This document shows, one piece after another, positions 7,973-27,335 of a stretch of DNA of 64,000 nt. Numbering within the stretch: the first letter of the stretch is position 1; each line of letters opens with the position of its first letter. The DNA comes from Verrucomicrobiia bacterium (GTDB lineage: Bacteria > Verrucomicrobiota > Verrucomicrobiia > Opitutales > Cerasicoccaceae). Under the pieces are notes generated by a model. The model was not told where the DNA came from, made no database searches, and saw nothing but the letters and a program-made list of their open reading frames with translations. Both the position numbers and the translations under genes were made by a program. Where the stretch lies: positions 186,001 to 250,000 of the forward strand of contig JAUIHT010000008.1 of the NCBI GenBank assembly GCA_030432235.1, in the 5' to 3' direction.

Positions 7973-8071
7973 GGGGCTATTTTTCGTGTCCGGTCTGATC
8001 GGCTTGCAAATCTCCGTCGTGTCTTATTGACTCCTCCGTGTCTTTTACCGACCAAGCAGGTTAAGTTGCCC

Positions 8072-9841: not shown

Positions 9842-10004
9842 GCTGTGTTTTCAAACCTCCCAAACTTCGGATTCTTGTGCCTTTTCCGCCCAAAATTCGT
9901 TTTCTCAGTTCTTGGAATCTGGATTCAACTCACCTCGAAAGCCAAATTTTCGGCTGAAAAATGCAAGGCGACTCCTCGCTTCGAGGTTTGAAAACACAGC
10001 CTAG
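9838..10004. repeat. 167-bp MITE-like element with perfect 22-bp terminal inverted repeats
   Basis: CTAGGCTGTGTTTTCAAACC continues two more bases (TC) to form the left arm, 9838-9859. Its exact reverse complement is 9983-10004. The 123-base middle has no coding potential but contains a small hairpin, CCTCG-CTT-CGAGG, at 9974-9986. The arms supply the TAG stop codons of both convergent neighbours, the GH1-AraC gene (9839-9841) and the sulfatase (10001-10003). Perfect long terminal repeats around non-coding DNA, with TA at each end, resemble a miniature inverted-repeat element. As RNA the arms would pair, so it could also end transcription in both directions. No second copy was seen in this window. 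Confidence 0.7.
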
Positions 10005-11422: not shown

Positions 11423-11470
11423 GACTCTTATCCGGCAGGATGACGCAGCCGGTTTGCTTCTTCAAACAAA

Positions 11471-11502
11471 CAAACTGCCGAAAATTTCTTTTCGGCAGTT
11501 TG
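11471..11502 (-). terminator. Hairpin terminator after the GH16 gene
   Basis: CAAACTGCCGAAAA at 11471-11484 pairs perfectly with TTTTCGGCAGTTTG at 11489-11502 around a four-base loop. This 14-bp stem lies 22 bases beyond the stop of the GH16 gene ending at 11525 and before the start of the sulfatase at 11422. It should separate the two transcripts, at least partly. A/T pairs at the loop and G/C pairs in the middle fit a stem-loop; the trailing T run on the minus strand is short. Confidence 0.7.
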
Positions 11503-11524
11503 TGAATGAAAGATTGTTGAAAGG

Positions 11525-13411
11525 TTAGCTGTCGCTCTGAACCACTTGAGAGTCGGGCTGGTAACCGTCAACCTCGGAAGCGAGGTCGGCGCGTTGCCAG
11601 ACGCGTACGTAGTCGATATAGGTGTAACCGGGCAGCTTTTTGTCATCGATGGGCTCGTTGTCCCAGCCGCCACCGACATGGGTGAAGATGATGCAGGACT
11701 CCACGTTGGAGATGCGATCGGTTTCCCAGCGTGCGACTTCCTTGCCGTTGGTATAGATAACTGCCAGCCCGGGGAGCCAAAGCAGGCCGGAGACGATGTA
11801 GCCTTCTTCGTCATGGCCGGCATAGACACCGGCGCCGGTGGCCTTGTGCTCCTTGCCGTAGCCGTCGTAATGGAAGGCGGTGGTAAAACGATACGGGCCC
11901 CAGCCGGAGAGGAATTCGAGGATGTCGAATTCCATGCCGCCCTTGCCGGTGTCCTGTCGGTGCCACTGCTCGCCGGCATCGACGCCGCGTTCGGGCATCA
12001 GCCAGAAAGCAGGCCACAGTCCGGGTGCCTTGGGCAGCTTGACGCGACACTCGAAGTAGCCGTAGCGTTGCACCCATTTGCCGTAGCTGTCGAGGAAGCC
12101 GGTGGTGTATTCACCGGTGCGCTTGTGGTTGGGATCGTCGTTGTGGTGGCTGAACTTCTTTTCGTAGATCAGGACTGCCTTGCCATCTTTAAACTCGACG
12201 TTGTTCTCGCTGAAGACGCTACGCTTGTCCCAGTAATTGGGGGCGTGAATGCGCCATTTGGTGCGGTCGAGGGTGTCGGCGTTGAACTCCTCGGTGAAGG
12301 TGAGTTCCCAGTCGCCGTCAACGGGCGGGCGCTTGCCAACCCAGTCTGGCAGCTTCACCGGAGGCGCGGTCAGGCGGATGGAATCGACAGTGATGGACTG
12401 GGCCCCTTCGCTATCACCGGACATGAGGACGATGGCGTCGGCTTTGTTGTTTTCGAAAAAGGGATTCTTCCGGCCCAGGCCCGCGTCCTTGCTTTCCTTG
12501 TAAATGAAGGAGACGGTCAGTGTGTCCGATTTTCCGGGAGCGAGTGGTTTTTCAAGAGTGGCGATGTCGGTATCGCCCCGGTTGCTGGAAGCCTTGGCGG
12601 TAGGATTCGCGGGGGTAGTGCCGGTGTTGCGTATTTTGAATTCCAACTCATAGCCTTCGCGAAGGTCCCATTTGCTTTGCTCGGGCTCGATGGCTACGCT
12701 CTGATCCGGACCGGAGAAGACGACGGCGAGCGGTTCGCCTGCGTTACCACCGGAGGCAGTGGCGCCATTGCGCGCGATGTATTTCTTGACGATGGTCTTG
12801 CCTGCACCGCCCAGCACGTAGCCGTCGATCGGTGCGACGTTGGGCTTGTAGGGCGAGGGAGACTTGCCGAGCTTGAGCGATTCGATTTTCAGCTCCTGGC
12901 CTTCGGCGGCCTTGCCGGTGAATACCTGAATTGCGGATACTTTCTTGGCGTCAAATGGGTAGGGCTTGTTGTAGCTGTAGCCGAAGTAGACCGTGATCTT
13001 CTTGCGGTCGCCCTTCGCCAGGCGCGCGGCCTGGACGTTCCACGGCTTTTGTTTCCAGTCGCCGGGGTTATCCACACGCATGGAGGCATAAACCGGCGCT
13101 TCGCCCTGGCTGCTAATAACCAGCTCCAGGCAGGTGTAATTGGAGAAGTCCCAGTACTCGCCCTCCGGCGGCAAGATGCGAATGCCGGGATAAGCGCCGC
13201 TTTCGGGGCTGGCCTTGATGATGAGGCCATCCGGCGTGGTGGGGTTGGCCGGCTCCAGGATGACTTTATCGCTGGTGGGATTGATGACTTTCGGGAATTC
13301 CTTGAAATCCTTGTCCCAGTCCTGGGCGTTGGCTGTGTGCGCGCCGACGGCGAGCAGGGCCGCGCAGAGAAAACCGGCGAGGCGGGCGGGTATGATTTTG
13401 GATAAACGCAT
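11525..13411 (-). CDS. Secreted GH16 endo-hydrolase with N-terminal CBM-like region
   Basis: I chose the ATG at 13411, which gives MRLSKIIPARLAGFLCAALL and a clean signal peptide ending near ANAQ; upstream ATGs would put extra residues before it. The 628-residue protein has an N-terminal beta-sandwich-like region (about 30-360). The motif RVDNPGDWKQ there recalls the non-catalytic N-terminal domains of GH50 and related agarases. The GH16 domain (about 380-610) has the catalytic E-x-D-x-x-E intact as MEFDILEF (E494, D496, E499). It should cleave beta-1,3 or beta-1,4 galactan or glucan chains outside the cytoplasm. The N-terminal arrangement is shared with 23548-25038. It has a sigma70-like promoter at 13445-13473 and its own hairpin terminator. 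Substrate specificity is not readable; the neighbouring sulfatases favour a sulfated galactan. Confidence 0.9.
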   Translation of the reverse strand: MRLSKIIPARLAGFLCAALLAVGAHTANAQDWDKDFKEFPKVINPTSDKVILEPANPTTPDGLIIKASPESGAYPGIRILPPEGEYWDFSNYTCLELVISSQGEAPVYASMRVDNPGDWKQKPWNVQAARLAKGDRKKITVYFGYSYNKPYPFDAKKVSAIQVFTGKAAEGQELKIESLKLGKSPSPYKPNVAPIDGYVLGGAGKTIVKKYIARNGATASGGNAGEPLAVVFSGPDQSVAIEPEQSKWDLREGYELEFKIRNTGTTPANPTAKASSNRGDTDIATLEKPLAPGKSDTLTVSFIYKESKDAGLGRKNPFFENNKADAIVLMSGDSEGAQSITVDSIRLTAPPVKLPDWVGKRPPVDGDWELTFTEEFNADTLDRTKWRIHAPNYWDKRSVFSENNVEFKDGKAVLIYEKKFSHHNDDPNHKRTGEYTTGFLDSYGKWVQRYGYFECRVKLPKAPGLWPAFWLMPERGVDAGEQWHRQDTGKGGMEFDILEFLSGWGPYRFTTAFHYDGYGKEHKATGAGVYAGHDEEGYIVSGLLWLPGLAVIYTNGKEVARWETDRISNVESCIIFTHVGGGWDNEPIDDKKLPGYTYIDYVRVWQRADLASEVDGYQPDSQVVQSDS

Positions 13412-13444
13412 GGTTGTTCGATAAGGTAACTGAAGCATGGTCCT

Positions 13445-13473
13445 AGTATAATGGATCCTTCTCAAAGCGACAA
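13445..13473 (-). promoter_or_regulatory. Sigma70-like promoter for the GH16 gene at 11525
   Basis: On the minus strand TTGTCG (13473-13468) is followed after 17 bases by TATACT (13450-13445), 34 bases before the ATG at 13411. Both boxes are close to consensus with ideal spacing. Confidence 0.55.
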
Positions 13474-13520
13474 GTCATGGGCTGACTCTAAGTATGTCAA
13501 AATCAGACAAACTGAAGCCG

Positions 13521-15407
13521 CTATTGTTGCTGTTTACGGGCGGGTGAAGCGCAAAAAAGGCCTATTTCTCCGGGTTTCAGGCTGATTTTGATAAAATCAT
13601 CGCAAACGGAAATGGGCTTCACGTTCGCGCCGACGACGTCGATTTTCGACCAGTCCGCACCTCCCGGCAGGCACACCTCGGCATGGATGTCTGTTTCGCC
13701 TTCGTTGAAAAGCAGGCACCAGAGTAGACCCGACTTACGAACCAGCCGTGCCCGCAGCCACGGGCATGGCTCGTTCGTGGTCACCGTCGGCTCCGCGATC
13801 GCGGTGATACGTTCCTGGCAATTCGGCGTTCCATCGTAAACGACGAAGCGTTTGGTCTGTGTTAGCGGTTCCAGGGCGGCCTCCAACTCGGGTGTAATGT
13901 AGTCGGGTTCGGCTAGGATGAGCCGGTAGCCCATGCTGCCGAGGTGCAGTTCATCGGCGGTGATGGTGGACTCTTCCAGGACTTGCCGGTCTTCCACATA
14001 GTGAAAATCAATCTGGTGCTCGAAGAGGAATCGCGCCACCGACTCAGGCAGGCGATCGCTGCGTCCGATGACCGCGACTTCGCATACGGGTTCCGACTCG
14101 AAGTTAACCCAACAAAGCCGATGACAGGCTCGGTGGAAATCCGTCAGGGCAGTGTCGTTCCACCAGGGGCCGTGCGGTCCGAGCTGTGGTGGACAGTCGT
14201 CAATGCGCGCGCCCCGCGTCGAGTAAAAGAAGGCGTGAGGCACCAGGAGATTGCAGCCCCGCACCAGAAGCCAGTGGGCGACGAAGCGATACAGGTCGAG
14301 CGAAACGTCCTCGCCGTACGCGCCCATGAATTCGTTCAGATTGCGCGCGCGGCCCTGATGGATGGCCGCCGACGCGGCGCACTTTGCCTGTAACGAAGGC
14401 CGTCCCGTGACCGCTTTCTCGCCCGGGAGGATGTCGTTCATGATGACGTCCTGACCGGGCCACTGGAAGTAGCGCAGGTGCCCGATGTCGTCGGGATGCT
14501 CGGGATGTCCGGTGAGGGCGACTCCATGATCGGTACACCATTCACTGAGCTGCCGGTAGTAAGTCGTTTCCAGGCGATGGTAGATCGCCCGTTGGTAGTC
14601 GCTCCGGTAACGTTCAGCCTCGGGTTCGTCGTCAAACCACAAGGCCGGCAGGTGGGGGGTGAAGTCGTAGCCGAGGTACGCGTTGACATGCTCGAGGATG
14701 CCGGTCGTGCCGGGGCGCGGTTTATAAGGCGAGAAGCGCCCCATGACGTAGGGCTCGTCGGTAAAGATGGCCGGAATGGTCTTGCCAAAGTGCTCGCCGA
14801 ACTCGTCGAAGTAGCGCTGGTAGACCAAGCGGATGAAGCACGTCACCGCCTCGGGATTGAGCAGGTCCGTGGCGGCGGGATGTTCCTCGGGGGCACGGCG
14901 ATCCCACCACGTTTCGCCGGGCACGGCGACATCCCCGTGGCCTTCCAGAAAATGCACGCCACGGATACCGGATTCAATGGGCCGGTCGACGATGTAAATG
15001 CTCTCCCCGTTGTTATGTTGCGCTTGGTAAACGAGGTGATGACCGGCAGAGGTGGGTGCCTCCTCCTGCATGACCAGCCCTCGGCAGGCGTAGAGCGGGT
15101 TTTCCGCCACCACCTGACCGCCGGAGGAACCCGACGGGTACATGGCTTCGTCGTAGAGGATGACGTGCATGCCGCGTCGCGCGGCCTCCTCGATCACGGC
15201 GCGCATACACGCGAGCAGATTGTCCGACATCCAGGCGAAGTCCTTGTGCAGGCCGATGCGCGGATGGATAACGACACCGTGGATGCCGCGCTCCTGGAAC
15301 TGTGCGAGCTGGTCGAGCAGCCGGGGGATTTCCAGCTTGTCGTTCCAAAACCAGAACGGCGTCAGTGACAGACGCTTATCGGGCTGTATGAAATCCCGGG
15401 GCAACAT
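13521..15407 (-). CDS. Putative TIM-barrel glycoside hydrolase, GH106-like
   Basis: This 628-residue protein without a signal peptide starts MLPRDFIQPDKRLSLTPFWFWND. The PFWFWND segment, the GIHGVVIHPRIGL strand, the ILYDEAMYPSG strand and the FTDEPYVMGRF strand resemble the (beta/alpha)8 region of GH106-type alpha-L-rhamnosidases and related unclassified hydrolases. The acidic residues in YDEAMYPSG and TDEPY are candidate catalytic groups. It follows the sulfatase gene at 15427 on the same strand with a 19-base gap, so the two are probably cotranscribed. It may act in the cytoplasm on a branched oligosaccharide after desulfation. The family assignment is from memory of conserved strands and is tentative. 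The last residues, ASPARKQQQ, show no extra domain. Confidence 0.55.
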   Translation of the reverse strand: MLPRDFIQPDKRLSLTPFWFWNDKLEIPRLLDQLAQFQERGIHGVVIHPRIGLHKDFAWMSDNLLACMRAVIEEAARRGMHVILYDEAMYPSGSSGGQVVAENPLYACRGLVMQEEAPTSAGHHLVYQAQHNNGESIYIVDRPIESGIRGVHFLEGHGDVAVPGETWWDRRAPEEHPAATDLLNPEAVTCFIRLVYQRYFDEFGEHFGKTIPAIFTDEPYVMGRFSPYKPRPGTTGILEHVNAYLGYDFTPHLPALWFDDEPEAERYRSDYQRAIYHRLETTYYRQLSEWCTDHGVALTGHPEHPDDIGHLRYFQWPGQDVIMNDILPGEKAVTGRPSLQAKCAASAAIHQGRARNLNEFMGAYGEDVSLDLYRFVAHWLLVRGCNLLVPHAFFYSTRGARIDDCPPQLGPHGPWWNDTALTDFHRACHRLCWVNFESEPVCEVAVIGRSDRLPESVARFLFEHQIDFHYVEDRQVLEESTITADELHLGSMGYRLILAEPDYITPELEAALEPLTQTKRFVVYDGTPNCQERITAIAEPTVTTNEPCPWLRARLVRKSGLLWCLLFNEGETDIHAEVCLPGGADWSKIDVVGANVKPISVCDDFIKISLKPGEIGLFCASPARKQQQ

Positions 15408-15426
15408 GACGATGCAAAGTGTGGGC

Positions 15427-16947
15427 TTAGCTGCCCTGTATGTCGATAGAGTGTTTGTCGCCCAGGCGACGCGCAGACTCCTCCCGTCCGGTGGCCATGA
15501 GGCGCTTCAGGTAGGTGGGGCCTTCATCGCGCACATGCAAGGGGCCGCCCTCGTGCATAACGGTCCAGAGCGGGTCCTGCCCGTGCGTGGCGGTTTTTAG
15601 GCAGTCGGTCAGCCAGGTGTTGAGGATGGCCTGGCCACGTATGACCAGCTCCGGATGATCGTCGGCGAGGTTGTGCTGCTCGTGCGGGTCGGCCTCGAGG
15701 TCGAAGAGCATGTCGTCCGGATAATCATGGAAGCCGTCGTGGTAGGTTTGGATGTAAAGGTAGTGATCCCAGCGAGCGGCACGTTGCGCGCACCAAGCCA
15801 GTTGCGACAGCACCAGATGGTCGCGATGCGGATGGTTCAGTGTGCCGGACTGCAAATCTCCGGCGATGGACTGGCCGTCCCAAACGGTGGGCACATCACG
15901 ATCACAAAGCTCGAGAATCGTGGCGGCGATGTCGACGTTGTAGATCAGGCGGTCGTCGGTTTGCCCGGCGTAGTTGTCAGTCAGGCCGGGCCAGCGGACA
16001 ATCATGGGCAGGCGCGAGGTGCACTGGTCGGCGGTCTGGTGGTCACCGTAGACCCAAAGCTCGCCGAGGTTTTCTCCGTGGTCGGAGGAGATGATGATGG
16101 CGGTGTCCTCGTAGATGCCCTTGTCCTTGAGGGCCTGGATAATCTTGCCGATGTGCAGGTCGGCATAAGCCACGCCCATGTCGTAGCCATCGAACATGCG
16201 TCGGGCTTCGTCCATGCTGTCGATGGCGTTGGGTTGCAAGCGGGGGATGGCCTCCATCCAGCCGCCGAGCTCGTCGTAGGTGGCCTGGTCCCACAGGTCG
16301 AAGCCATTGGTCTCCTGGGCTGAGTGCGGGCCAGGCTTGCCCCAGTGCTCGCGGCGGATGTCCTCGTTGTACCACGCGGGTAGAGGATCATCCTTAAAGG
16401 GATTTTCCATCTCGGCGGGCGTGCGGTAGGGTGTGTGCGGGTCCCAGATGTTGACCCACATGAAGAACGGTTTCTCGTCGTCGCCCTTGCGCTCGATCCA
16501 GTCCACGACATCGGGGGAAATCCAGTTGGCCGTTTCCATGCCGTGGTAGCCGGAGTTATGCATTTCCTGGAAACCCGCGTACCAGTGCCAGGCTCCGTGT
16601 CGCTGGGCAAAGGGGGAAAACGCCACCGTGCGGTATTTCTTCGGGTGGCTGAGCAACCGGGCCAGGTTGGTTTCCGTCAATCCACAGTGGAACCCGCGGT
16701 CACGTCCCCAGTTGAAGGGTTGTGAGGCGACCCCGCCGTGGTTGACCACGCCGGTGTGAATACCGAAGCGGCCTGTCGTCATGGCGGTGCGGCTGGGCAG
16801 GCAGGGGGCGTCCGGCGTGTAGCAGTTGGTAAAGCGCAGTCCCTCCTCCGCAATGGCGTCGATGTTGGGCGAGGTGGCGCGGTGGTAGCCGTAGCAGCCC
16901 AGGTGGTCGGGTCGAAGCGAATCGATATCGATGTAGAGAATGTTCAT
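15427..16947 (-). CDS. Type I formylglycine sulfatase, cytoplasmic form
   Basis: The chosen ATG at 16947 gives MNILYIDIDSLRPDHLGCYG, the normal sulfatase start with the metal-binding aspartates. The longer frame back to 17046 adds 33 residues with no signal-like features. The protein is 506 residues. C49 lies in CLPSRTAMTTG, the C-x-P-x-R motif, and SSDHGENLGELW carries the second metal site. The C-terminal domain contains DMLFDLEADPHEQHNL. It is distinct from the sulfatase at 10001, because the region after the DHGE motif and the substrate loops differ, so it probably removes sulfate from another position or sugar. It lies 19 bases upstream of the GH106-like gene. The genes for its formylglycine-generating enzyme and its substrate transporter are not in the window. 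Confidence 0.92.
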   Translation of the reverse strand: MNILYIDIDSLRPDHLGCYGYHRATSPNIDAIAEEGLRFTNCYTPDAPCLPSRTAMTTGRFGIHTGVVNHGGVASQPFNWGRDRGFHCGLTETNLARLLSHPKKYRTVAFSPFAQRHGAWHWYAGFQEMHNSGYHGMETANWISPDVVDWIERKGDDEKPFFMWVNIWDPHTPYRTPAEMENPFKDDPLPAWYNEDIRREHWGKPGPHSAQETNGFDLWDQATYDELGGWMEAIPRLQPNAIDSMDEARRMFDGYDMGVAYADLHIGKIIQALKDKGIYEDTAIIISSDHGENLGELWVYGDHQTADQCTSRLPMIVRWPGLTDNYAGQTDDRLIYNVDIAATILELCDRDVPTVWDGQSIAGDLQSGTLNHPHRDHLVLSQLAWCAQRAARWDHYLYIQTYHDGFHDYPDDMLFDLEADPHEQHNLADDHPELVIRGQAILNTWLTDCLKTATHGQDPLWTVMHEGGPLHVRDEGPTYLKRLMATGREESARRLGDKHSIDIQGS

Positions 16948-17070
16948 CGGGTACGTGTTTATTGCGGAATGGCTTTGAACGAGCGACAGAGCATAACAAA
17001 GGACAGACGAAATCGGTGAGGCCGAAGCTGCCTCCAAGTGTGTCATTATCCGACTATCCCGGAAAGCAAA

Positions 17071-17100
17071 AACGCCGGGGCAGGTATCTACCCCGGCGTT
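17071..17100 (-). terminator. Rho-independent terminator after the 1043-residue GH16 gene
   Basis: On the minus strand AACGCCGGGG pairs with CCCCGGCGTT around a ten-base loop and is followed at once by a run of T (TTTTTGC). It lies 30 bases past the stop at 17130, so it ends the GH16 transcript before the sulfatase gene at 16947. Confidence 0.85.
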
Positions 17101-17129
17101 GTGTTTAGATGAGAGAGTGGTCGTGCGGC

Positions 17130-18380
17130 TTACCAGGGAGTGAAGGTGGTGCCAAAGACACCGAACTCGCCCTCGGCGTTGTCACCGGAGCCATCCCAGT
17201 AATCAGCCTGGAAGGTGAGGTCGCCGGTTTCGTAACCGCGGGGCATGTTGCCCACGTAGCCGCCTTGCCCCTCCAGGGACGTCACCGTGTCGTTGTCGAA
17301 ATCGACAGTGGCGATGAGGACATCCCCGGCCTCGGGGGTGAACTCGTTCTGGCCGCCGTTGTTGTCTGCGTACCATTTGTCGAGGGAGACGTTGTAGACT
17401 ACAGCGACCACATGATCGGCGTTGCCCGTCAGGACGTTGAAGCGCGTGTTGACGTCCGTGGCGCTGTACATGAGGTAGCCGCTGCCGGTTCGCCAGTCCG
17501 TTGCGCAGACGCCGTCACCGACATCGCCGAGGTCGACGGGTCCGGAGGCGCCGCCGGTGGAGTTCGCGGTGAAGAAGGTGCCCTCGACAACATAGTCGGC
17601 CTCATCACTGTCGTTGGAGCCGTTCCACTGGTTGGCAATGTAGGTGAGGTCGCCGTTGTAGTAGCCGTACATGACCCCGAACTCCACGCCCGCATAGCCC
17701 TGCAGTGAGCTTACCGTATTGTTGGTGAAATCGACGGCGGCCAGAAGGACATCCGTCGAAACCGGCGTGAAGGCGACCTGGCCGTAGTTTTTATCGGCAT
17801 ACCATTGTCCGCCCGAGTAGTAGACGGCGATGATGTGATCGGCGTTACCGGAGAAGGCGGTAAAACGGGTGGCGGTATCCTCCTCGCTGTACATGAGGTA
17901 GCCGGTGCCGGTACGCCAGTCCGTCGCGGCCACGCCGCTGTTAAGGTTACCGACATCGTAGGTGCTTCCGGCGCCGGGACCATTGGGAGTGAAGGTGGTT
18001 CCCTCGACGAAGAAGTCACCGTCGTCGCTATCGTTACTGCCGTCCCAGCGATCGGCAATGTACACCAGGTTCCCTGTGTAGTAGCCGGACGGGATGCCGT
18101 AGACGAGCTCGTTGCGTCCCTCCAGGGATTCGATGGTGTCGTTGTCGAAGTCGATCGTGGCCAGAAGTACATCCGAAGCGACCGGCGTAAACGTTGTCTG
18201 GCCGTAGTTCTTGTCCGCGTACCATTGCCCGCCGGAATAATAGACGGCGATCAGGTGGTCGGCGTTGCCAGAGAAGGCGGTGAAGCGGGTGGCGGTATCT
18301 TCCTCACTGTACATAAGGTAGCCGGTGCCGGTGCGCCAGTCCGTCCCCGCGATGCCGCTGTTGACGTCACCGATGTCGAT
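17130..18380 (-). repeat. Three tandem about 139-residue modules in the GH16 C-terminus
   Basis: Units begin with DIGDVNSG (near 18379), DVGNLNSG (near 17957) and DLGDVGDG (near 17537). Each then contains TDWRTGxGYLMYS, a GNADHxxAV strand, QWYADKN, VLLATIDF-like and SLEG segments, and an FTP end. Units one and two are very alike at DNA level, for example around the GYLMYSEED codons, which points to recent duplication. Two diverged copies occur in the neighbouring 20426-23548 protein. The fold and function are unknown; polysaccharide binding is a reasonable guess. Confidence 0.8.
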
Positions 18381-20261
18381 GGGGTCGGGATCGCCTTCGC
18401 CTTCGTAGATGCTTACATTGATGAAGCGAGCGTAGTTCTGGTTATTGACATCGTTGTCGGCAGCGATGGCCAGGTAGGAAATCGCTCCGGTATAGTAGCT
18501 GCCGATTGCGATGGGCAGCTCCATCTGTCCGCCTTCCGTTATGTAGACGTTGGCGTCCTGCCAGGCGTTACTCCATATCTGGCTGCCGGCGAGTTGGAAG
18601 ATGCGCTTGTCGTTGGTTTCGTCGTTGTCGTTCTCCAGGCCGATGCCGAGGATTTCCCCCGCGATGGCAGAATCGACGGTAAACTTCAGCACGGTGTCTT
18701 CCGTGATGGTGTAGTTGAGCGGGAACTTCACCCAACCGTTACGGCCGATGCCAAACTCGTAGCCGTTGTCGGCCAGTGCGACGGCGGCACCCTCGTTGGC
18801 GGTGCCTCCGTAGACGGTATAGTCTTCACCGAATTTGATGACGCCGTTGCTTTCGATGGATGTCGTTGTTGGCGGCGAAGTCGATTTGGTGCCCGACCAG
18901 ACGCGGACCCAGTCCACCTCCATGGTGGCGCCGTCGATGGTCGCACTGGGGGTGTTGCCATCCCAGCCACCGGTCTGCAGCGACAGAATAAGGTACATGG
19001 GCGTGTCGGCTACGCGTGTGTTGGCAAAGGTGGCGGTCTTGACGTCGTCGATATAAAACTCGATCAGGTCGGGCTCCCAATAGATGGCGTAGGTGTGCCA
19101 CTGGCTGGTGTCGTCGACGGGTGGGCGGCCCCAGGCTTCGGCCTTGTGGTTGCTGGAATAGCCGTCCCAATGACATACGTGAGAGGTGTTGGTGTTGCCC
19201 CAGACCCCGAGTGATTCCATGATGTCGATTTCCATGCCGGCGCCGTAGGTGTTCACCGTGGTGTCGTTGTTGCCGCTGCCGTAGGCTTCCCAGATACTAA
19301 GCAACACCTCGCTGCCATAGTTGGTGTTCGCGACTGTGCCACCCTTGACTGGTGCATCCGCTACCGGGTCGTAAGGAATGCCGTTAATGATCAGCACAGG
19401 GCGATCGCTCGCGTTGGTGGCTTCGCGGCTGTGGTATTCGATCCGGTTCCAGTTGCGAAGCGTGTCCGCCAGGCAGAGGGTGAAAACCTGGTCCGAATTC
19501 GCCACCTGATCGGCGATGAAGGCGGTGACATCGAGATCTACGGTCGAGCCGATTGTCCGGTTGTCGTAAGACTGGTCGAGCCAACGGGGGTCTTCGGGGA
19601 CGGGCATGTTATTCCAGGTGATGCCCGTTTCGGTCCAGTTGTCATCGTCGACGCCAAAGGCCACCGTGTTGGTTTTGGCGGTGGTGGGGCTGGTATTTTG
19701 AATACCGGCAACTTTCAGGCGCAGCACGGCACTGGTGATGGTGCCGAGGCTGGCGCTGCTGAGGTCGAACTTGAGGTAGGAGCGATTGAAGTAATTTTGA
19801 TAACTGTATATTCCACGGTCGGGCATGGTCCAGAAGGCCGGCCAGAGTCCCGTAATGTTATCCCAGCGGATGCGGGCCTCGAAATAGCCGTAGGCCTGGG
19901 TGAAGCCGGGGGTTTCGCCGTCGCGCGAATACATGCGGAAGGTGCTGATTTCTCCCGCGGAATAGTTGTAGTTTTTTCCGTTCTGGACGGCAGCTTCCTG
20001 GTGTGCGGTGAGTCGTAGCACGCCGTTAACCAATTCGATGTTCTCGCGTTTGATGGCTGCACCGATGCCGTATTCCGTGGCGGAGCCCGCCGGACTGCCA
20101 TCGTGGCTGCCTTGTCGCCAGACGGTGCCGTCCAGGATGGCGTCGTCAAATTCGTCTTCGAAGGTCAGGGAGAAACTCCCAGGAGGAGGAGCGGCATGGA
20201 GGGAGATGCACGCGCAGAGAAGCAATGCCGAAAGACATTTCGGCCAGTATCTTTTTATCAT
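17130..20261 (-). CDS. Secreted GH16 hydrolase interrupted by a permuted CBM96-like module, with three C-terminal repeats
   Basis: This 1043-residue protein has a signal peptide (MIKRYWPKCLSALLLCACISLHA). GH16 begins at FSLTFEDEFDDAILD and runs to LWPAFWTMPDRG (about residue 150). About 185 residues of another domain then intervene before GH16 resumes at GMEIDIMESLG (E344, D346, E349) and ends near WVRVWSG. The insert has NRSYLKFDLS, then WTETGITWNN, DVTAF, SREATN and VLIING, and last VKGGTVANTNYGSEVLL. These are CBM96/DNRLRE motifs, but the strand normally first in the module comes last. After GH16 comes a beta-sandwich-like region (about 480-625, with FQLAGSQIWSN and YYTGAISYLAI), then three tandem repeats of about 139 residues. 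It should act outside the cytoplasm on a cell-wall galactan or glucan. It lies 164 bases downstream of the GH16 gene ending at 20426 and has a strong terminator. Confidence 0.88.
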   Translation of the reverse strand: MIKRYWPKCLSALLLCACISLHAAPPPGSFSLTFEDEFDDAILDGTVWRQGSHDGSPAGSATEYGIGAAIKRENIELVNGVLRLTAHQEAAVQNGKNYNYSAGEISTFRMYSRDGETPGFTQAYGYFEARIRWDNITGLWPAFWTMPDRGIYSYQNYFNRSYLKFDLSSASLGTITSAVLRLKVAGIQNTSPTTAKTNTVAFGVDDDNWTETGITWNNMPVPEDPRWLDQSYDNRTIGSTVDLDVTAFIADQVANSDQVFTLCLADTLRNWNRIEYHSREATNASDRPVLIINGIPYDPVADAPVKGGTVANTNYGSEVLLSIWEAYGSGNNDTTVNTYGAGMEIDIMESLGVWGNTNTSHVCHWDGYSSNHKAEAWGRPPVDDTSQWHTYAIYWEPDLIEFYIDDVKTATFANTRVADTPMYLILSLQTGGWDGNTPSATIDGATMEVDWVRVWSGTKSTSPPTTTSIESNGVIKFGEDYTVYGGTANEGAAVALADNGYEFGIGRNGWVKFPLNYTITEDTVLKFTVDSAIAGEILGIGLENDNDETNDKRIFQLAGSQIWSNAWQDANVYITEGGQMELPIAIGSYYTGAISYLAIAADNDVNNQNYARFINVSIYEGEGDPDPIDIGDVNSGIAGTDWRTGTGYLMYSEEDTATRFTAFSGNADHLIAVYYSGGQWYADKNYGQTTFTPVASDVLLATIDFDNDTIESLEGRNELVYGIPSGYYTGNLVYIADRWDGSNDSDDGDFFVEGTTFTPNGPGAGSTYDVGNLNSGVAATDWRTGTGYLMYSEEDTATRFTAFSGNADHIIAVYYSGGQWYADKNYGQVAFTPVSTDVLLAAVDFTNNTVSSLQGYAGVEFGVMYGYYNGDLTYIANQWNGSNDSDEADYVVEGTFFTANSTGGASGPVDLGDVGDGVCATDWRTGSGYLMYSATDVNTRFNVLTGNADHVVAVVYNVSLDKWYADNNGGQNEFTPEAGDVLIATVDFDNDTVTSLEGQGGYVGNMPRGYETGDLTFQADYWDGSGDNAEGEFGVFGTTFTPW

Positions 20262-20425
20262 GGGTATGGGGGTTAGGGGTGAAGCACGCAGGTGGCAGTT
20301 GCCTGACCGGCGACTCAGAGCTTAACACTCTCCCGAAAAAAGCGGTAGTCGTATTCCGCTAATTATTGTGCAAATATCCGACCCTTTCTTGGCCTGCGGA
20401 TTTTGAACGGCGGCCGGCTTATATC

Positions 20426-23400
20426 TTAAGCATCCGGTGCCTGAGGCACCTCAGGAAACATCAGCCGGAAAAAGACGGTGGGTTCGGACGCACCTGCTTC
20501 AAGCTCACGTGTGGCCGTTTGATCCGCTTCGTTAATCACTTCGTCGGTCAAGGCGGATTCCAGCCAGGTGACCAAGTCGGTGGAGTATTGCAGGCGATAA
20601 TCCAGATCGCTGATGGGGCGGGGGTATTCGATGCTGAAATCGAGACCACCACTGCTGTTGTGCGACATTGAACACTGCAGGATATTTCCCGAATCGTAAC
20701 GCATCGGGTCGGAGCCGAGCGCAAACTCGGCGAAGTTGGTTCGGCCATCATCGTCCGTGTCGTGCCAGAGGGTTCTTGCCGTAGAAGCGACGCCGGCCCA
20801 GTCACGTGCTATCCGCCAGGCATTATATAACTCGTGCGGAGTAGGTGCGTTCAGTCGAAAGGCACTGCCGGTGATACTGACCGGGCCGTCTTCGGATTCG
20901 TCTCCCCATTGATTCGGGGTAAAGCCGATATCGCCACTGAGGTAGCCTTTTCTGATGCCTTGTTCAAAGCCGTTTTCGCCGAGGTGCAAGTCCACGGTGT
21001 CATCGCGAAAGTGAATGGAGGCCAGGATGAGGTCCGTTGGATTGGGGATGAAGGCCACCGCCTTGGTGCCGCTGTTGTAGTACCACTGGCCCTCCTCGCA
21101 AAAGACAGCGACTAAATGGTCGGCGTTGCCGTCGCGTATGTTGAAGCGTGTGTTCACATTCTCGGCGCTGTACAGAAGATACCCGGTCAGGATTTGGTCG
21201 GCACTGATAGCGATGCCCTGATTGAGCGCACCGAGTTGGTAGTCACCGGATGGCAGCGGCAGAGGCACATCTGAGTGTGGCGTGAAACCGCTGCCGCTGA
21301 CGGCAAACTCACCGGCCGGATTTTCGCCGCCTCCGTTCCAGACGTTGGCGTAGTAGGCGAGGTCGCCGTCCGCGTATCCGTAGTGAATGCCCTCGTAGGT
21401 ATCGTGTTCCCCTTCCAGCGAGCTCACGGTGTCGTTGCTGAAATTGACGGTGGCCAGAAGCACGTCCGTTGGCGCGGGCTCGAAAGCGATCTGGCCGTAG
21501 TTGCGGTCCACGTACCACTGCCCGCCGGAGTAGAAGACCGCGACGACGTGATTGGCGTTGCCGTTAAACGCGCCGAAGCGACTGAAGACATTCTCCGCAC
21601 TGTACATCAAAAAGCCAGTGCCGCTGCGCCAGTCCGTGCCTGCCACGCCGCTGCCCACTGCGCCGAGCGGCACGCTTTGAGTGGTGTCCGTCCCGGCTTC
21701 GCGCAGGCGCAGGTTGCGAATGACGGCATCGATGGAGGGCTTGCTGTCGTCATCGGCGACAATGGCCAGGTTGATCATGGGGCCCGTGTAGTACTCGCCG
21801 ATGGGGATGGAAAAGGTCTGTGGGCCGGAGCCGTCGACGTAGGTGCGGTAGTTCTGGTAGGTGTTGCTCCAGGTCTGTCTGCCGCCCAGTTGAAAAACGC
21901 GCACGTTGCCGGTCTCGAGATTGTTCTCGTCCAGTCCGATGGCGAAGATTTCACCCAGGTCCGTGGCTTCGAGTTGAAACTCCAGAATCGTGTCCGGCCC
22001 GACCTGAGTGACAACCGGCAGCCGGATCCAGCTGTTGCCTTTGACATAAAACTCGGCGCCGTCCGCCGAAGGGCCGCTGAGCCCCTGAATGCCTTGCGAG
22101 CCGTAAGAGCCGAAATCGTTGCCGAAGACGACGCGACCGTCGTCTTCGACCATGGTATGGTCGCGCGTGCGCGGATCGCGTTCGCCGCTCCAAACGCGTA
22201 CCCAGTCGACTTCGAAGGCTTGGCCGTCGATGGCGGGGTCGATCTGGTCGTTGCCGTGCCAACCGCCCAACTGCATCGACAGGAGGAGGTAGGCTTCGAG
22301 ATCCGTCGCGCGTGAGTCGCGGAAGGTTCCGGTCAGCTCGCCGTCGACATAAAACTCAATCAGCCCCGGCGCCCAGTACGCGCCGTAGGTGTGAAACTCG
22401 GATGTGTCTTCAACCGGGTAGCCCCAGCCGGTGTTTTTCACGCTTCCGCCGCTGTTGTAACCATCCCAATGCAACGCGTTGGAAGCGCGTTGGCTGCCCC
22501 AAACGCCGAGGGCTTCGAGGATGTCGATCTCCATGCCGCCGTGGGTGGTGATGGCCGTATTGCCCCAGTAGTCGCCGACGTTCAGGACCGCGCTACTGCC
22601 GTGTTTGGCGTTCGGATTGCCCAGGTTGACATAGGTGTCCTCTGTTGCTTCGTGGGATACGCTGTTGATGATGAGCTGCGGGCGCAGTGAGGGCGTAGCG
22701 GCTTCCCGGCTGTGGAAAAGGGTGGTCTGTGCCTTCATCAGGGTATCGGCCAAAGCGAAGGAGATGACGCCATCGCCGTCGAGCTGACTGCTGACAAAAT
22801 CGGTCACATCGATGTCGATGACATCCCCGGGCTCCCCGATGACGCCATGCAGTTGCTTCAGGAAGAGCGGATCCCAGCTCGGCTGGGTGTTCCAGGTCAT
22901 GTTGCTTTCGCTCCAGTCGTCCGCCTCCATGCGGAAGACCAGGACGTGTCGCGCTTTGTCCTCGGCCAGCACTTCGGGGTCGAAGGAATCGATAGTCAGC
23001 CGTAGCGTGGCTGTGTCGACGGTGTTAATGGATTCCCCGGAGAGGTCGAACTTGAGGAAAGCGCGGTTGTGCCGGTACGGGTTGCCGTAATTACCACGAT
23101 CGGGCATGGTCCAAAAGGCGGGCCACAAGCCGGTGACGGACGGCCAGCGCAACCGAGCCTCGAAGTAGCCGTAGCGTTGCTTGAAGCGCCGGAAGGTGGT
23201 GATTTCCGCCCCGCCGTAATCGTAAGTCTGGGCATTCCAGACCGTGGGGGCAGTCGATGCCTTGAGCCGCAGAATGCCGTCGGACACCTCGATGTTGTCC
23301 GGATTGTTTCCGCCTTGCCCGCCGATGCCGCCCCAGTGCCCGGCCAGTTTCCATTTGCTGCCGTCTAGGGTGGTGCCTTCGAACTCGTCGGAGAAGGTCA

Positions 23401-23548
23401 TCTCCCAAGTGCCCGGTGGGGGCGTCGCGGTCAGAGCGGCTGTGTATAGTGCCAGCAGGGGGAGACAGCAGAGCGATTCCTTCGTGCCAGGGATTAAGAA
23501 ACGATGCTTACGGGAACGGACTGGGGGTGCTTGTCTGTGTGCCTCCAT
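20426..23548 (-). CDS. Secreted GH16 hydrolase with inserted permuted CBM96-like module and two C-terminal repeats
   Basis: The ATG at 23548 (MEAHRQAPPVRSRKHRF) gives 1040 residues, and its A overlaps the TAA of the upstream GH16-like gene (TAATG), so the two are translationally coupled. A signal-anchor or signal sequence lies at CCLPLLALYTAALTA. GH16 starts at WEMTFSDEFEGTTLDGSKW. It is broken after LWPAFWTMPDRG by about 185 residues (NRAFLKFDLS, SNMTWNTQP, DVTDFV, SREAATP, QLIINS, then DTYVNLGNPNAKHGSSAVLNV) and resumes at GMEIDILEALG (E340, D342, E345). A beta-sandwich region (FQLGGRQTWSN, YYTGPMINLAI) follows, then two diverged copies of the repeat found in 17130-20261. The end is DTDDDGRTNFAEFALGSDP plus about 90 residues of a C-terminal domain common on secreted verrucomicrobial enzymes. 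It is a paralogue of the next gene with the same unusual insertion. Confidence 0.87.
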   Translation of the reverse strand: MEAHRQAPPVRSRKHRFLIPGTKESLCCLPLLALYTAALTATPPPGTWEMTFSDEFEGTTLDGSKWKLAGHWGGIGGQGGNNPDNIEVSDGILRLKASTAPTVWNAQTYDYGGAEITTFRRFKQRYGYFEARLRWPSVTGLWPAFWTMPDRGNYGNPYRHNRAFLKFDLSGESINTVDTATLRLTIDSFDPEVLAEDKARHVLVFRMEADDWSESNMTWNTQPSWDPLFLKQLHGVIGEPGDVIDIDVTDFVSSQLDGDGVISFALADTLMKAQTTLFHSREAATPSLRPQLIINSVSHEATEDTYVNLGNPNAKHGSSAVLNVGDYWGNTAITTHGGMEIDILEALGVWGSQRASNALHWDGYNSGGSVKNTGWGYPVEDTSEFHTYGAYWAPGLIEFYVDGELTGTFRDSRATDLEAYLLLSMQLGGWHGNDQIDPAIDGQAFEVDWVRVWSGERDPRTRDHTMVEDDGRVVFGNDFGSYGSQGIQGLSGPSADGAEFYVKGNSWIRLPVVTQVGPDTILEFQLEATDLGEIFAIGLDENNLETGNVRVFQLGGRQTWSNTYQNYRTYVDGSGPQTFSIPIGEYYTGPMINLAIVADDDSKPSIDAVIRNLRLREAGTDTTQSVPLGAVGSGVAGTDWRSGTGFLMYSAENVFSRFGAFNGNANHVVAVFYSGGQWYVDRNYGQIAFEPAPTDVLLATVNFSNDTVSSLEGEHDTYEGIHYGYADGDLAYYANVWNGGGENPAGEFAVSGSGFTPHSDVPLPLPSGDYQLGALNQGIAISADQILTGYLLYSAENVNTRFNIRDGNADHLVAVFCEEGQWYYNSGTKAVAFIPNPTDLILASIHFRDDTVDLHLGENGFEQGIRKGYLSGDIGFTPNQWGDESEDGPVSITGSAFRLNAPTPHELYNAWRIARDWAGVASTARTLWHDTDDDGRTNFAEFALGSDPMRYDSGNILQCSMSHNSSGGLDFSIEYPRPISDLDYRLQYSTDLVTWLESALTDEVINEADQTATRELEAGASEPTVFFRLMFPEVPQAPDA

Positions 23549-25038
23549 TAAACGGTATCCTCCTTGCCCGCCTGTTTCGGTGCAGAGGCGGGCGCGTCCT
23601 GCGGCAGTTGATCGGTGCGTTGCCAGACGCGGATGTAGTCGACTTCCCAGTGATCCGGCAGGGAGCTCTCGTCGATGCTTTTGGTGCTGTGTTTGCTCAA
23701 GGGCATGGTGAGGGAGAGATAGCTGGTAACGTTGGCGATGTGCTCGCTGCGCCATTCGCCGGTTTTTTTGCCATCGACGTACCAGACCAGCCGGTCCGGC
23801 TCCCAGAGCATGCCGTAGACGTGCCAGCTGTCGCCGGTGGGGCCGTGGTACACGTAGCTGTCGCCCCAGTTTTTCGGTTCATGGGTGCCGGCCGGGCCGC
23901 CCCAACGTGTGCCGTAGCTGACGCGGCCAGGGCCCCATTCGGTCTGATGGCGGACAATGTCCATCTCCATGCCCTGGCCGTTGAAGTCGTGCGAGGTGCG
24001 ACGCTCGTGCATATTGAGGTTGTTGTCCGGACCACGGTCGGGGATAAGCCCGAAGACGATCGCCAGGCCGCGGGCCGTGGGCATCTTGGCGCGTATTTCG
24101 AAATAGCCGTAGCGTTGGGTCCACTTGTCGTAACTGGATAGCATGCCTGCGGCATAGTCGCGACGGGGCAGGGTGGGATCGTCGTACTGATGGCCCGGAT
24201 TCTTCTCGGTCGTCAGGCGCACTTTGCCTTCGTCGAGGGCTACGTTGGCGTCACGGTAGCGTTGAGCTTCTTCCCGGTGCGGCCCGATGATGGCCAAGTG
24301 CGTCGACCAGACGGAGGCGTCCACCGTGCCTGCGGTGAAGTCTTCGTCTAGGGTCAGGGTCCACGGGCCTTCGACGGGTGGCTGCTGGCCGATCCAGTCG
24401 GGCGTCTGCACGGCGATTTGGCGGTCTTCGGGCTTGCTGAAGCGCTCACGGGATTGCTCGGGGCTGGGCTCGCCGTAGGCTTTAGGCTCACCCATGCGCA
24501 GGACAGTCGCTTCCTTGGGATTCAGCAGGAAAAACTGGTAGGCGGTGATCCGGGAAGCATCCAGCGGATAGCCGGGCTTGCCGTTGTTCTGGCCGAAGAC
24601 GGAGTGGATGGTGACGGTTTCTCCGGGCTTGAGCAGGCGCACCTCGGTGTTCCAAAACTGCTCCTTGTGGTCGCCGGGATTGTCCACTCGCAAAGCGCCC
24701 CGCACGGCAGTCTCGCCCAGATTGGTCACGGTCAGCTCTATGCCGCGATAGGCTGACAGGTCCCAGCCGCCCTTCGGACAGGGGAAAGCAATCTTGGGAT
24801 AGCCGCCCGCTTCGAATGTCGCATGGATCGCTTTACCGCCCTCTGCTTCGGTTACCTCGGTGCGGTCCAGGCTCAGGGCTGCTATGCCATCGGAGGCATC
24901 CGGGGAGAACAGGACGCGCACATGCTCGCCCGGTGCGTTGGATTCGTTCGCCGTGAGTAAGGGGACAGATATACTGCACGCAGCCAAAAGTTGTAGGAGC
25001 CGTACGGTGAGGAAGGGGGGCGGACTGTTAAACATCAT
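23548..25038 (-). CDS. Secreted GH16-like protein lacking the acid/base glutamate
   Basis: This 496-residue protein has an N-terminal signal (FLTVRLLQLLAACSISVPLLTA). Residues about 35-200 match the N-terminal domain of 11525-13411, including the shared motif RVDNPGD and a similar VFGQNNGKPGYPLD stretch. The GH16 domain (about 220-475) keeps the family landmarks WTLTLDEDFTAGTVD, YGYFEIRAKMP and VDYIRVWQR. The catalytic motif reads MEMDIVRHQ: E358 and D360 are present, but the third position, normally glutamate, is R363. It may therefore be a non-catalytic binding protein or use another acid. The ending QLPQDAPASAPKQAGKEDTV is low complexity. It is the first gene of the minus-strand GH16 run and overlaps the next start by one base. 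Confidence 0.82.
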   Translation of the reverse strand: MMFNSPPPFLTVRLLQLLAACSISVPLLTANESNAPGEHVRVLFSPDASDGIAALSLDRTEVTEAEGGKAIHATFEAGGYPKIAFPCPKGGWDLSAYRGIELTVTNLGETAVRGALRVDNPGDHKEQFWNTEVRLLKPGETVTIHSVFGQNNGKPGYPLDASRITAYQFFLLNPKEATVLRMGEPKAYGEPSPEQSRERFSKPEDRQIAVQTPDWIGQQPPVEGPWTLTLDEDFTAGTVDASVWSTHLAIIGPHREEAQRYRDANVALDEGKVRLTTEKNPGHQYDDPTLPRRDYAAGMLSSYDKWTQRYGYFEIRAKMPTARGLAIVFGLIPDRGPDNNLNMHERRTSHDFNGQGMEMDIVRHQTEWGPGRVSYGTRWGGPAGTHEPKNWGDSYVYHGPTGDSWHVYGMLWEPDRLVWYVDGKKTGEWRSEHIANVTSYLSLTMPLSKHSTKSIDESSLPDHWEVDYIRVWQRTDQLPQDAPASAPKQAGKEDTV

Positions 25039-25352: not shown

Positions 25353-26195
25353 ATGAAAATCTATCCCATCCTTTCACTCGCCGTCGCTTCGCTGCTCCCC
25401 GCGGCCTTGCAAGCGGATTATTCGACGAGCTTTACTACGGCTGACGGATTTACGAACGGCAACTTGAGCGGCCAGAACTCCTGGAATGCTAACACGACGG
25501 GAGCCAGCGTCTTCACCGTTGCGGATGCGGTAACCACCGGCACGGTAGCTATCGGCCAAGTCACCGGCACCGCCACCATTTCCTATAACGGCGAAGGCTA
25601 CGACTTCTCTCAGGTCGGCGCGAATTACACTCTTTCAGCCGATCTTCAGTTTACTGATGCCGGAGACACAACTGCTTCGAATAATCCGTTTTTTTCCATG
25701 ATGTATGGGTTTGCCCCCACGGGAGGCACGGACGGGTCCACATCGTTGGTCTTGCGCAAGACTTCTAGTGAAGCCTACCAGATCGCTCTGTATTCCAAAA
25801 CCGCAGTAACTCTGTCTAAGAGTGCTCTGGGCCTGGACCCGGGCGTGGATAATGACTCGGATGTTCTTCGCCTGACCTCTTCCTTTACAGGTGGTGGTTC
25901 CGTCAAAGCGGATTGGAGTGTGGATTATACGCTCTACAACGTGACGACCGCGACCACCATTGTCAGTGGTACTCTCAGCAATATCAACTTGAATGCCAAT
26001 TCCATCGATAATCCTTCCATGTATGGGCTGGTTGCTTCCGGTGCATTCCAGCAGGACAATCATGATGGTATCAGTAATATTGAGCTTTTGGATTATAGCG
26101 CCAGCTTCACGGCGATACCGGAACCGGGCACGTATGCGTTTGGCTTCGGTGGTCTGATGCTGGCAATCGCGGTTTACCTGCGTCGCCGTCGATAG
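25353..26195 (+). CDS. PEP-CTERM sorting-domain surface protein, copy 1
   Basis: This 280-residue protein begins with the signal MKIYPILSLAVASLLPAALQ and ends with IPEPGTYAFGFGG, a hydrophobic stretch LMLAIAVYL and RRRR. This is the tripartite PEP-CTERM sorting signal recognised by exosortase/archaeosortase-type enzymes. The middle is a beta-rich, Ser/Thr/Gly-rich region (DYSTSFTTADGFTNG onward), probably a jelly-roll-like passenger of unknown binding function. The gene has its own promoter-like element and a downstream hairpin. It is the first of two tandem paralogues whose leader codons are almost identical at DNA level while the mature parts differ strongly. Exosortase is not in the window. 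PEP-CTERM proteins are typically exported and tied to exopolysaccharide, consistent with the polysaccharide-degrading surroundings. Confidence 0.9.
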   Translation: MKIYPILSLAVASLLPAALQADYSTSFTTADGFTNGNLSGQNSWNANTTGASVFTVADAVTTGTVAIGQVTGTATISYNGEGYDFSQVGANYTLSADLQFTDAGDTTASNNPFFSMMYGFAPTGGTDGSTSLVLRKTSSEAYQIALYSKTAVTLSKSALGLDPGVDNDSDVLRLTSSFTGGGSVKADWSVDYTLYNVTTATTIVSGTLSNINLNANSIDNPSMYGLVASGAFQQDNHDGISNIELLDYSASFTAIPEPGTYAFGFGGLMLAIAVYLRRRR

Positions 26196-26504: not shown

Positions 26505-27335
26505 ATGAAAATCTATCCCATCCTTTCACTCGCCGTTGTTTCGCTGCTCCCCGCAGCTTTGCAAGCGGATTATTCGACCAGCTTTACTGCCGCGGAGGGC
26601 TACAGTGATGGTCCTTTGAGTAATAACGAAAATTGGAATAATGCCCTTGAGGGCGGCATCTACACTGTCGACGCGACCGCGGGCCAGGTTGATATCGGCG
26701 CGACGGGTGCTGGCTTCGGCTCCTTATCGATATTGGCGACCAGTTCGTATGATTTCACTCAAGTTGGGTCTACCTACACTGCGTCAATGGATTTCCAATT
26801 TACGGACACGAATGCGGCCATCAGCGGTACGAACACGTTTATTTCCATGCTTTATATGAATAACCCAACTGGTGGTAGCGTGAACCAGACCAGTCTTGGA
26901 ATTCGCCGTAATGCCAGCCCGGGTAGTTATCAGCTTGTACGTTTTGCCGCGAGCACTGCCAGTTTGTCTGCGAGTGGTATCGGGATCGATATCGGTTCCA
27001 ACGATTTTGTCTCCGATGTACTTCGAATGAGCTATACCTTGACCGCGGGAGAAACCCCCTCGACTTGGTCGGCGACATACAGCGTCTACAATGTCGATAC
27101 TTCGACGACTGTTACCAGCTCCACTATCACCGTTAACGTGACTAGCGCTGCTGCGGACGACGATTCCATGTATGCCGCTCTTTCCACTGGGGCCAATAAC
27201 GGAAATGGCATCACAGACATCACCATGTATGACTATGCTTCATCGGCGGTCATCGTGCCGGAGCCCACCACCTACGCATTTGCTTTCGGCGGCCTGATGT
27301 TGGCTTTGGTCGGCTTCCGACGCTTCCGCAAGTAA
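26505..27335 (+). CDS. PEP-CTERM sorting-domain surface protein, copy 2
   Basis: This 276-residue paralogue of the preceding gene begins MKIYPILSLAVVSLLPAALQ, one residue different from copy 1 in the first 20. It ends VPEPTTYAFAFGG, hydrophobic LMLALVGF and RRFRK, the PEP-CTERM sorting signal. The passenger region (SENLN-free, rich in Ser, Thr, Asn and Gly) is clearly diverged from copy 1 but keeps a similar layout, including a DDDSMYAALSTGA stretch where copy 1 has DNPSMYGLVASGA. It has a separate promoter-like element and a strong terminator at 27357. It is likely an exported surface or matrix protein; the ligand is unknown. The pair probably arose by tandem duplication that included the promoter. 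Confidence 0.9.
   Translation: MKIYPILSLAVVSLLPAALQADYSTSFTAAEGYSDGPLSNNENWNNALEGGIYTVDATAGQVDIGATGAGFGSLSILATSSYDFTQVGSTYTASMDFQFTDTNAAISGTNTFISMLYMNNPTGGSVNQTSLGIRRNASPGSYQLVRFAASTASLSASGIGIDIGSNDFVSDVLRMSYTLTAGETPSTWSATYSVYNVDTSTTVTSSTITVNVTSAAADDDSMYAALSTGANNGNGITDITMYDYASSAVIVPEPTTYAFAFGGLMLALVGFRRFRK

Follow-up and report, generated by a model that had tools for sequence, protein, structure and literature searches.

How does a glycoside hydrolase come to carry, inside its catalytic domain, a carbohydrate-binding module (CBM) whose strands appear in an unfamiliar order? The question is raised by a 64,000-nucleotide stretch of DNA, here called the window, from a Verrucomicrobiia bacterium (family Cerasicoccaceae; GenBank assembly GCA_030432235.1, contig JAUIHT010000008.1, positions 186,001 to 250,000 of the forward strand). 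One of its genes encodes P0001, a protein with a GH16 domain that is broken by a segment related to CBM96/DNRLRE. An earlier note on this DNA, made from its letters alone, had proposed a circular permutation of the inserted module. The analysis reported here indicates that the GH16 domain is almost certainly interrupted by an entire CBM96/DNRLRE module that is circularly permuted.

An interrupted GH16 domain

P0001 consists of a signal-peptide-like start, the GH16 domain with the permuted CBM96 inside, an unannotated domain of ~150 amino acids (aa) and three C-terminal repeats of ~130 aa. The parts of the interrupted domain are:

17130-20261, (-) strand: P0001 open reading frame, 1043 aa
19812-20186, (-) strand: GH16 N-terminal half, residues 26-150, last letters LWPAFWTMPDRG
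19383-19796, (-) strand: CBM96 main piece, residues 156-293, Pfam profile 37-163
19293-19367, (-) strand: relocated CBM96 start with strands b1-b2, residues 299-323, PVADAPVKGGTVANTNYGSEVLLSI region, equal to the profile start
19239-19292, (-) strand: right junction to GH16, residues 324-341, longer than in most family members
18894-19238, (-) strand: GH16 C-terminal half, residues 342-456, begins GMEIDIMES

The Pfam GH16 profile PF00722 matches P0001 in two pieces, with a match to the CBM96 profile PF24517 (E 7e-25) in between; the NCBIfam DNRLRE model also matches (E 2e-21, profile 28-163). The family identity and the motif positions read in the earlier note are thus confirmed, the insert occupying residues ~151-341 (window 19239-19814, (-) strand) between LWPAFWTMPDRG (residues 139-150) and GMEIDIMESLG (342-352). 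The catalytic ExDxxE motif (E344/D346/E349) is intact. For P0001 and a second protein of the same kind in the window, P0002, the inserts score 88.2 and 85.1 bits with PF24517 (curated cut-off 26) and 76.7 and 80.8 bits with NF033679 (curated cut-off 34), and the GH16 domains score 68.9 and 60.2 bits with PF00722, in two pieces (cut-off 22). The Pfam CBM96 match in P0001 covers positions 37-163 of 164 only, and the missing start is found after the end of the match.

Circularly permuted order of the insert

A normal-order profile was built from 22 CBM96 domains of the same class and then doubled (160 + 160 columns). All 26 inserts, from the source and other genomes, align to the doubled profile as one stretch from ~column 35 to ~190, crossing the junction of the old C-terminus and the old N-terminus, and each gains 11-30 bits over the single profile. 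Normal-order CBM96 domains show no such gain (mean -0.7). Tail-only shuffling was applied to five members, and for every one of them 0 of 1000 shuffles came up to the observed gain; the gain was 15.6 bits for P0001 against a shuffled-tail maximum of 7.9, and 24.2 bits for P0002 against a maximum of 11.2.

In the opposite direction, a profile built from the inserts recovers both solved CBM96 members, 8WAB and 7VBO. Residues 17-48 of the 8WAB chain correspond to insert-profile positions 138-169 (independent E-value 1e-3), and residues 53-186 correspond to positions 7-137 (independent E-value 5e-17). 8WAB therefore matches the insert profile in two pieces of swapped order. The assignment of b1-b2 in P0001 is based on the duplicated profile, the shuffle test and this swapped match.

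The strands found behind the last strand are b1 ('DxxV') and b2 ('LxV'). The insert departs from the family strand order in that b1-b2 come last, and it is a permuted variant of CBM96/DNRLRE rather than a canonical member. The earlier note had placed the usual first strand at the end of the module; the relocation stands, but it comprises two strands, not one. As a check, the note had proposed a duplicated-profile alignment; for every member, this alignment runs unbroken through the old termini.

Predicted structure

The insert modelled alone forms one β-sandwich, with a predicted local distance difference test score (pLDDT) of 88.9 and a predicted template modelling score (pTM) of 0.85. A structure search matched this model to 8WAB (Z 14.7, 136 residues, model 4-146 on chain 47-186) and 7VBO (Z 13.3, 139 residues, model 4-144 on 30-179), followed by a next row at Z 9.3. 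The comparison is a sequence-ordered alignment, and model strands 152-157 and 171-176, together with the first part of both solved chains, remain unpaired, as is to be expected when such an aligner meets a permutation. GH16 with its insert was modelled by AlphaFold2 with 22 sequences (pLDDT 82.5, pTM 0.84). The GH16 part has a Z of 26.7 to the laminarinase-like 2vy0, over 1-435 (whole chain); its best structural matches are laminarinases (Z about 26), and carrageenase and porphyranase chains score Z 22-23. In the models, which were the other check suggested by the earlier note, the insert forms a complete CBM96-like sandwich inside an intact GH16 fold. Thus the insert neither aligns in normal order nor is predicted to fold as an unrelated domain, the two outcomes that the earlier note had named as speaking against a permutation.

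An account without permutation would describe the insert as an N-terminally truncated CBM96 followed by an unrelated strand, or by the remnant of a second, lost CBM96. It agrees with the Pfam result for P0001, which gives positions 37-163 only, and with the score of the P0001 tail by itself, only 6.5 bits. It conflicts with the gain on the doubled profile in every insert and with the shuffled tails, and also with the conservation of the tail across two phyla with a linker of 14-15 residues and the confident prediction of the tail as strands belonging to the one sandwich. On sequence and prediction, a truncated CBM96 is already refuted, and we consider it extremely improbable.

The insert model also matches the Porphyromonas gingivalis BAM complex; for BamM, a subunit of the Bacteroidota BAM complex, the nearest fold is the DNRLRE/CBM96 domain 8WAB (PMC12611786).

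Other copies and the insertion site

The source genome contains four copies of GH16 with a permuted CBM96: P0001, P0002, C18 and C42. In C18, the Pfam CBM96 profile itself matches at positions 37-163 and then at 3-39 directly downstream (E 8.7e-6). The likely start of P0002 is the ATG at 23548, which overlaps the stop of the upstream GH16 gene (TAATG) and is preceded by AAGGAGG. P0002 and the GH16 proteins without insert in the window are:

20426-23755, (-) strand: P0002 open reading frame, likely start 23548, second GH16 with permuted CBM96
22664-23071, (-) strand: P0002 CBM96 main piece, residues 229-364, profile 39-163, E 6e-24
22574-22651, (-) strand: P0002 relocated CBM96 start, residues 369-394, EDTYVNLGNPNAKHGSSAVLNV region, from the duplicated profile and shuffle test
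22181-22534, (-) strand: P0002 GH16 C-terminal half, from Pfam
23548-25038, (-) strand: GH16 without insert, directly upstream of P0002
11525-13465, (-) strand: GH16 without insert, the empty-site comparison, with the 15-residue loop VDAGEQWHRQDTGKG

The last of these agrees with the 15-20 residues that the earlier note had estimated at this site.

Closely related GH16 proteins without insert occur in the same genomes as inserted members. The loop of the empty-site paralogues reads MPDRG-PEAGPQWKRADTGNGG-MEFDIME, and inserted members retain the loop end, ADTFNGG-MEIDIME, indicating that the insert took the place of ~9-10 loop residues immediately ahead of the catalytic glutamate. The acidic residues of ExDxxE, two Glu and one Asp, are invariant (22 rows). 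At the junctions, a Tyr is conserved in 21/22 members, a Gly in 20/22 and an aromatic residue in all 22, which suggests a fitted interface. In most members, only a few residues separate the end of the insert from the nucleophile.

Further along P0001, residues ~630-1043 form the three ~130-aa repeats (GDVNSGIAGTDWRTGTGYLMYS...), which have no Pfam match and resemble repeats in P0002. A domain similar by eye to the unannotated ~150-aa domain at residues ~470-625 follows tandem CBM96 repeats in two proteins of related genomes (L180, L181); the P0001 domain is possibly another binding module.

Distribution of the family

A scan of named genomes yielded at least 20 further loci with the full arrangement, in Verrucomicrobiota and Planctomycetota. 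Among the loci listed are Cerasicoccus (three species), Rariglobus, other Opitutaceae, Puniceicoccaceae, Spartobacteria LR76, metagenome-assembled genomes of Methylacidiphilaceae and Kiritimatiellae, and Planctomycetota; this taxonomic range is a lower bound. Full-length matches to the permuted profile are present in 7 of the 387 genomes of the window's phylum and in 3 of 294 Planctomycetota genomes. The arrangement is rare yet widely spread. A search of plasmids returned ordinary GH16 or partial matches only.

Origin of the permuted module

In a GH16 tree calculated with the insert removed, the inserted members lie on one side of a branch, with support of 87/38 for all rows and 100/100 once four long rows are left out. 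The permuted modules likewise lie on one side of a branch in the CBM tree (99/94). From these trees, there was apparently one insertion of one permuted module. The nearest normal-order relatives of the permuted modules are two tandem CBM96 pairs (97/76, moderate support), a sister group that makes a slice from a tandem array the likeliest origin. Tandem arrays read across a repeat boundary give a near full-length match to the permuted profile (3-168 of 180). The linker between the old termini, counted from the RPxL proline to the b1 aspartate, is 14-15 residues long in 22/22 permuted modules, compared with 16-21 in tandem arrays.

The permuted module was thus quite probably cut from a tandem CBM96 array. 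In the proposed pathway, a segment from mid-repeat to mid-next-repeat of the array would have replaced the ~9-10 GH16 loop residues, once. The permutation places both ends of the module at the usual b2-b3 loop, so that it can be plugged into one GH16 loop. Permutation by duplication, in which a tandem array is sliced, is the route described for swaposin (PMC3320104).

One observation weighs against this pathway: no intermediate, whether a normal-order, duplicated or longer insert, was found among all GH16 loci examined. GH16 loop segments fall in length bins of 20-59 or 180-219 residues, and the long segments are permuted in 28 of 28 cases, crossing the old-terminus junction. The lack of intermediates would also fit a free permuted CBM96 that arose elsewhere and moved into GH16 later, and the order of the trees fits either route. 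Among the 387 genomes, however, no full-length permuted match lies outside GH16, and the other long matches to the permuted profile, where readable, are tandem normal-order arrays, located at the ends of other, non-GH16-looking proteins. An origin as a free permuted module is therefore unlikely, and a slice from a tandem array is preferred.

Function of the inserted module

Given the invariant ExDxxE motif, the enzyme should be active. The inserted module probably binds polysaccharide. With residue equivalences to 7VBO read from the profile alignments, the structural Trp84 is retained in 22/22 members; of the Ca-site residues, the equivalent of Asp82 is retained in 20/22 and those of Asp142/143 in 16/22.

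In the proposed mechanism, CBM96 occupies the GH16 loop from which the chain passes straight into the catalytic ExDxxE strand. A secreted GH16 endo-glycanase would then bind polysaccharide with the module beside the cleft, where it would supply additional subsites and keep the substrate chain in place at the active site. The position of the insert end near the nucleophile, together with the conserved junctions, fits a module held beside the cleft. In an unrelated case, MtGlu5, experiments have shown that an inserted CBM extends the cleft (PMC9063844).

Several observations count against such a role. Lys27 and Arg36 of 7VBO are important for alginate binding (PMC9971899), and their equivalents are Lys/Arg in only 13/22 and Arg in only 12/22 members, respectively; the two window copies both have Arg at the Arg36 equivalent, and Trp or Gly at the Lys27 equivalent. 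The equivalents of 7VBO Lys25 and Tyr159 are not retained. With this partial retention, the module may bind weakly or recognise another ligand. Confidence in the predicted right junction of P0001 is low (pLDDT 54-60), and the orientation of GH16 and CBM96 in the model is accordingly tentative.

The module might instead serve as an independent tether or structural spacer that is not part of the active-site cleft and that either anchors the enzyme on polymer some way from it or does no more than stabilise the loop. The partly retained ligand residues and the long, loosely predicted right junction of P0001 are in keeping with this. The near-invariant residues at both junctions in 22 members are not, nor is the short distance from the insert end to the nucleophile in most members, which requires the module to lie near the cleft entrance. 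A tether or spacer is less likely, at somewhat under one chance in three by our judgement, and cooperation of the module and the GH16 cleft in substrate binding is slightly favoured. Taken as a whole, a GH16 endo-glycanase that uses a permuted CBM96 from a tandem array as a cleft-side binding surface is a reasonably probable explanation. The permutation cut lies between the equivalents of 7VBO Lys27 and Arg36. Because it thus falls inside the ligand-binding segment, the permutation could have been selected for turning the CBM96 groove onto the GH16 cleft, giving a composite or ligand-gated cleft; this idea is speculative and rather doubtful.

Putative substrate

P0001 and P0002 belong to a same-strand run (10001-25038, (-) strand) that comprises a GH16, the two GH16 proteins with permuted CBM96, a sulfatase, a weak GH106-like protein, a further GH16 and a sulfatase. 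The solved CBM96 members bind anionic polysaccharides, alginate for 7VBO and chondroitin sulfate for 8WAB. These ligands and the sulfatase context make a sulfated polysaccharide the likeliest substrate here; the chances that the source organism's enzyme acts on a sulfated polysaccharide of the algal type are about even. Family members also occur in genomes that are not marine-looking by name, so a sulfated substrate need not hold for the whole family. Kappa-carrageenase (NF041449) was rejected as an assignment, the scores of 43.6 and 45.7 bits being far under the 350-bit cut-off.

Next to this GH16/sulfatase cluster are the genes of two small secreted proteins (25353-26195 and 26505-27335, (+) strand) that resemble each other and have PEP-CTERM-like C-termini. 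Elsewhere in the window, 8027-9841 ((+) strand) encodes an enzyme-regulator fusion of a GH1 β-glucosidase (residues 22-464) and a C-terminal AraC-type helix-turn-helix domain (502-581). At 58048-63498 ((+) strand) lies the gene of a protein of 1816 aa in which RHS repeats follow a Peptidase_C39 match, and an RCC1-repeat protein (54629-58015) lies just upstream of it.

Comparison with known systems

The insert shares sequence family, sandwich fold, Trp84 and Asp82 with CBM96/DNRLRE (PF24517, NF033679; 7VBO, 8WAB), but it is permuted, lies inside a catalytic domain and retains the alginate-groove residues only in part. The inserted enzymes share the fold (Z 26.7) and ExDxxE with laminarinase-like GH16 (2vy0; PF00722), and differ from ordinary GH16 in that the loop preceding the catalytic strand holds a module of ~190 residues. 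Catalytic domains interrupted by a binding module, as here, are described for MtGlu5 (GH5 with a CBM29-like insert, PMC9063844), GH10|CBM4 (PMC7848910), SusG (GH13 with CBM58) and GH26 with an internal CBM (PMC13357471); these involve other GH and CBM families, and the available portions of the sources do not mention permutation. Swaposin, the plant-specific insert of aspartic proteinases (PMC3320104), is likewise a circularly permuted domain inside an enzyme, although the domains are unrelated, eukaryotic and not sugar binding. The engineered RoCBM21 CP90 (PMC3511584) demonstrates that a CBM still folds and binds once circularly permuted, but it is laboratory-made, not inserted and of another family. 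Inserted permuted domains are also found in RNA polymerase insertion domains, as cited in PMC13114784.

In the literature searched, which included few subscription journals, we found no glycoside hydrolase described with a naturally permuted CBM inside it, and neither permuted CBM96 modules nor GH16 enzymes with a permuted CBM turned up. Precedents exist for the insertion of CBMs and for the insertion of permuted domains, each on its own, and we found no report of the two together.

Implications

The arrangement reveals a blind spot of annotation, in which a partial CBM96 match is reported and the permutation is missed. A composite or ligand-gated cleft, if true, would be the natural counterpart of engineered switches that use inserted permuted domains. 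More broadly, an out-of-register slice from a tandem array, with its two ends brought together at a single loop, would be one way in which nature can equip a catalytic cleft with a built-in binding module. With more than 20 members, empty-site paralogues and normal-order relatives, the family allows both the benefit of insertion and the need for permutation to be tested.
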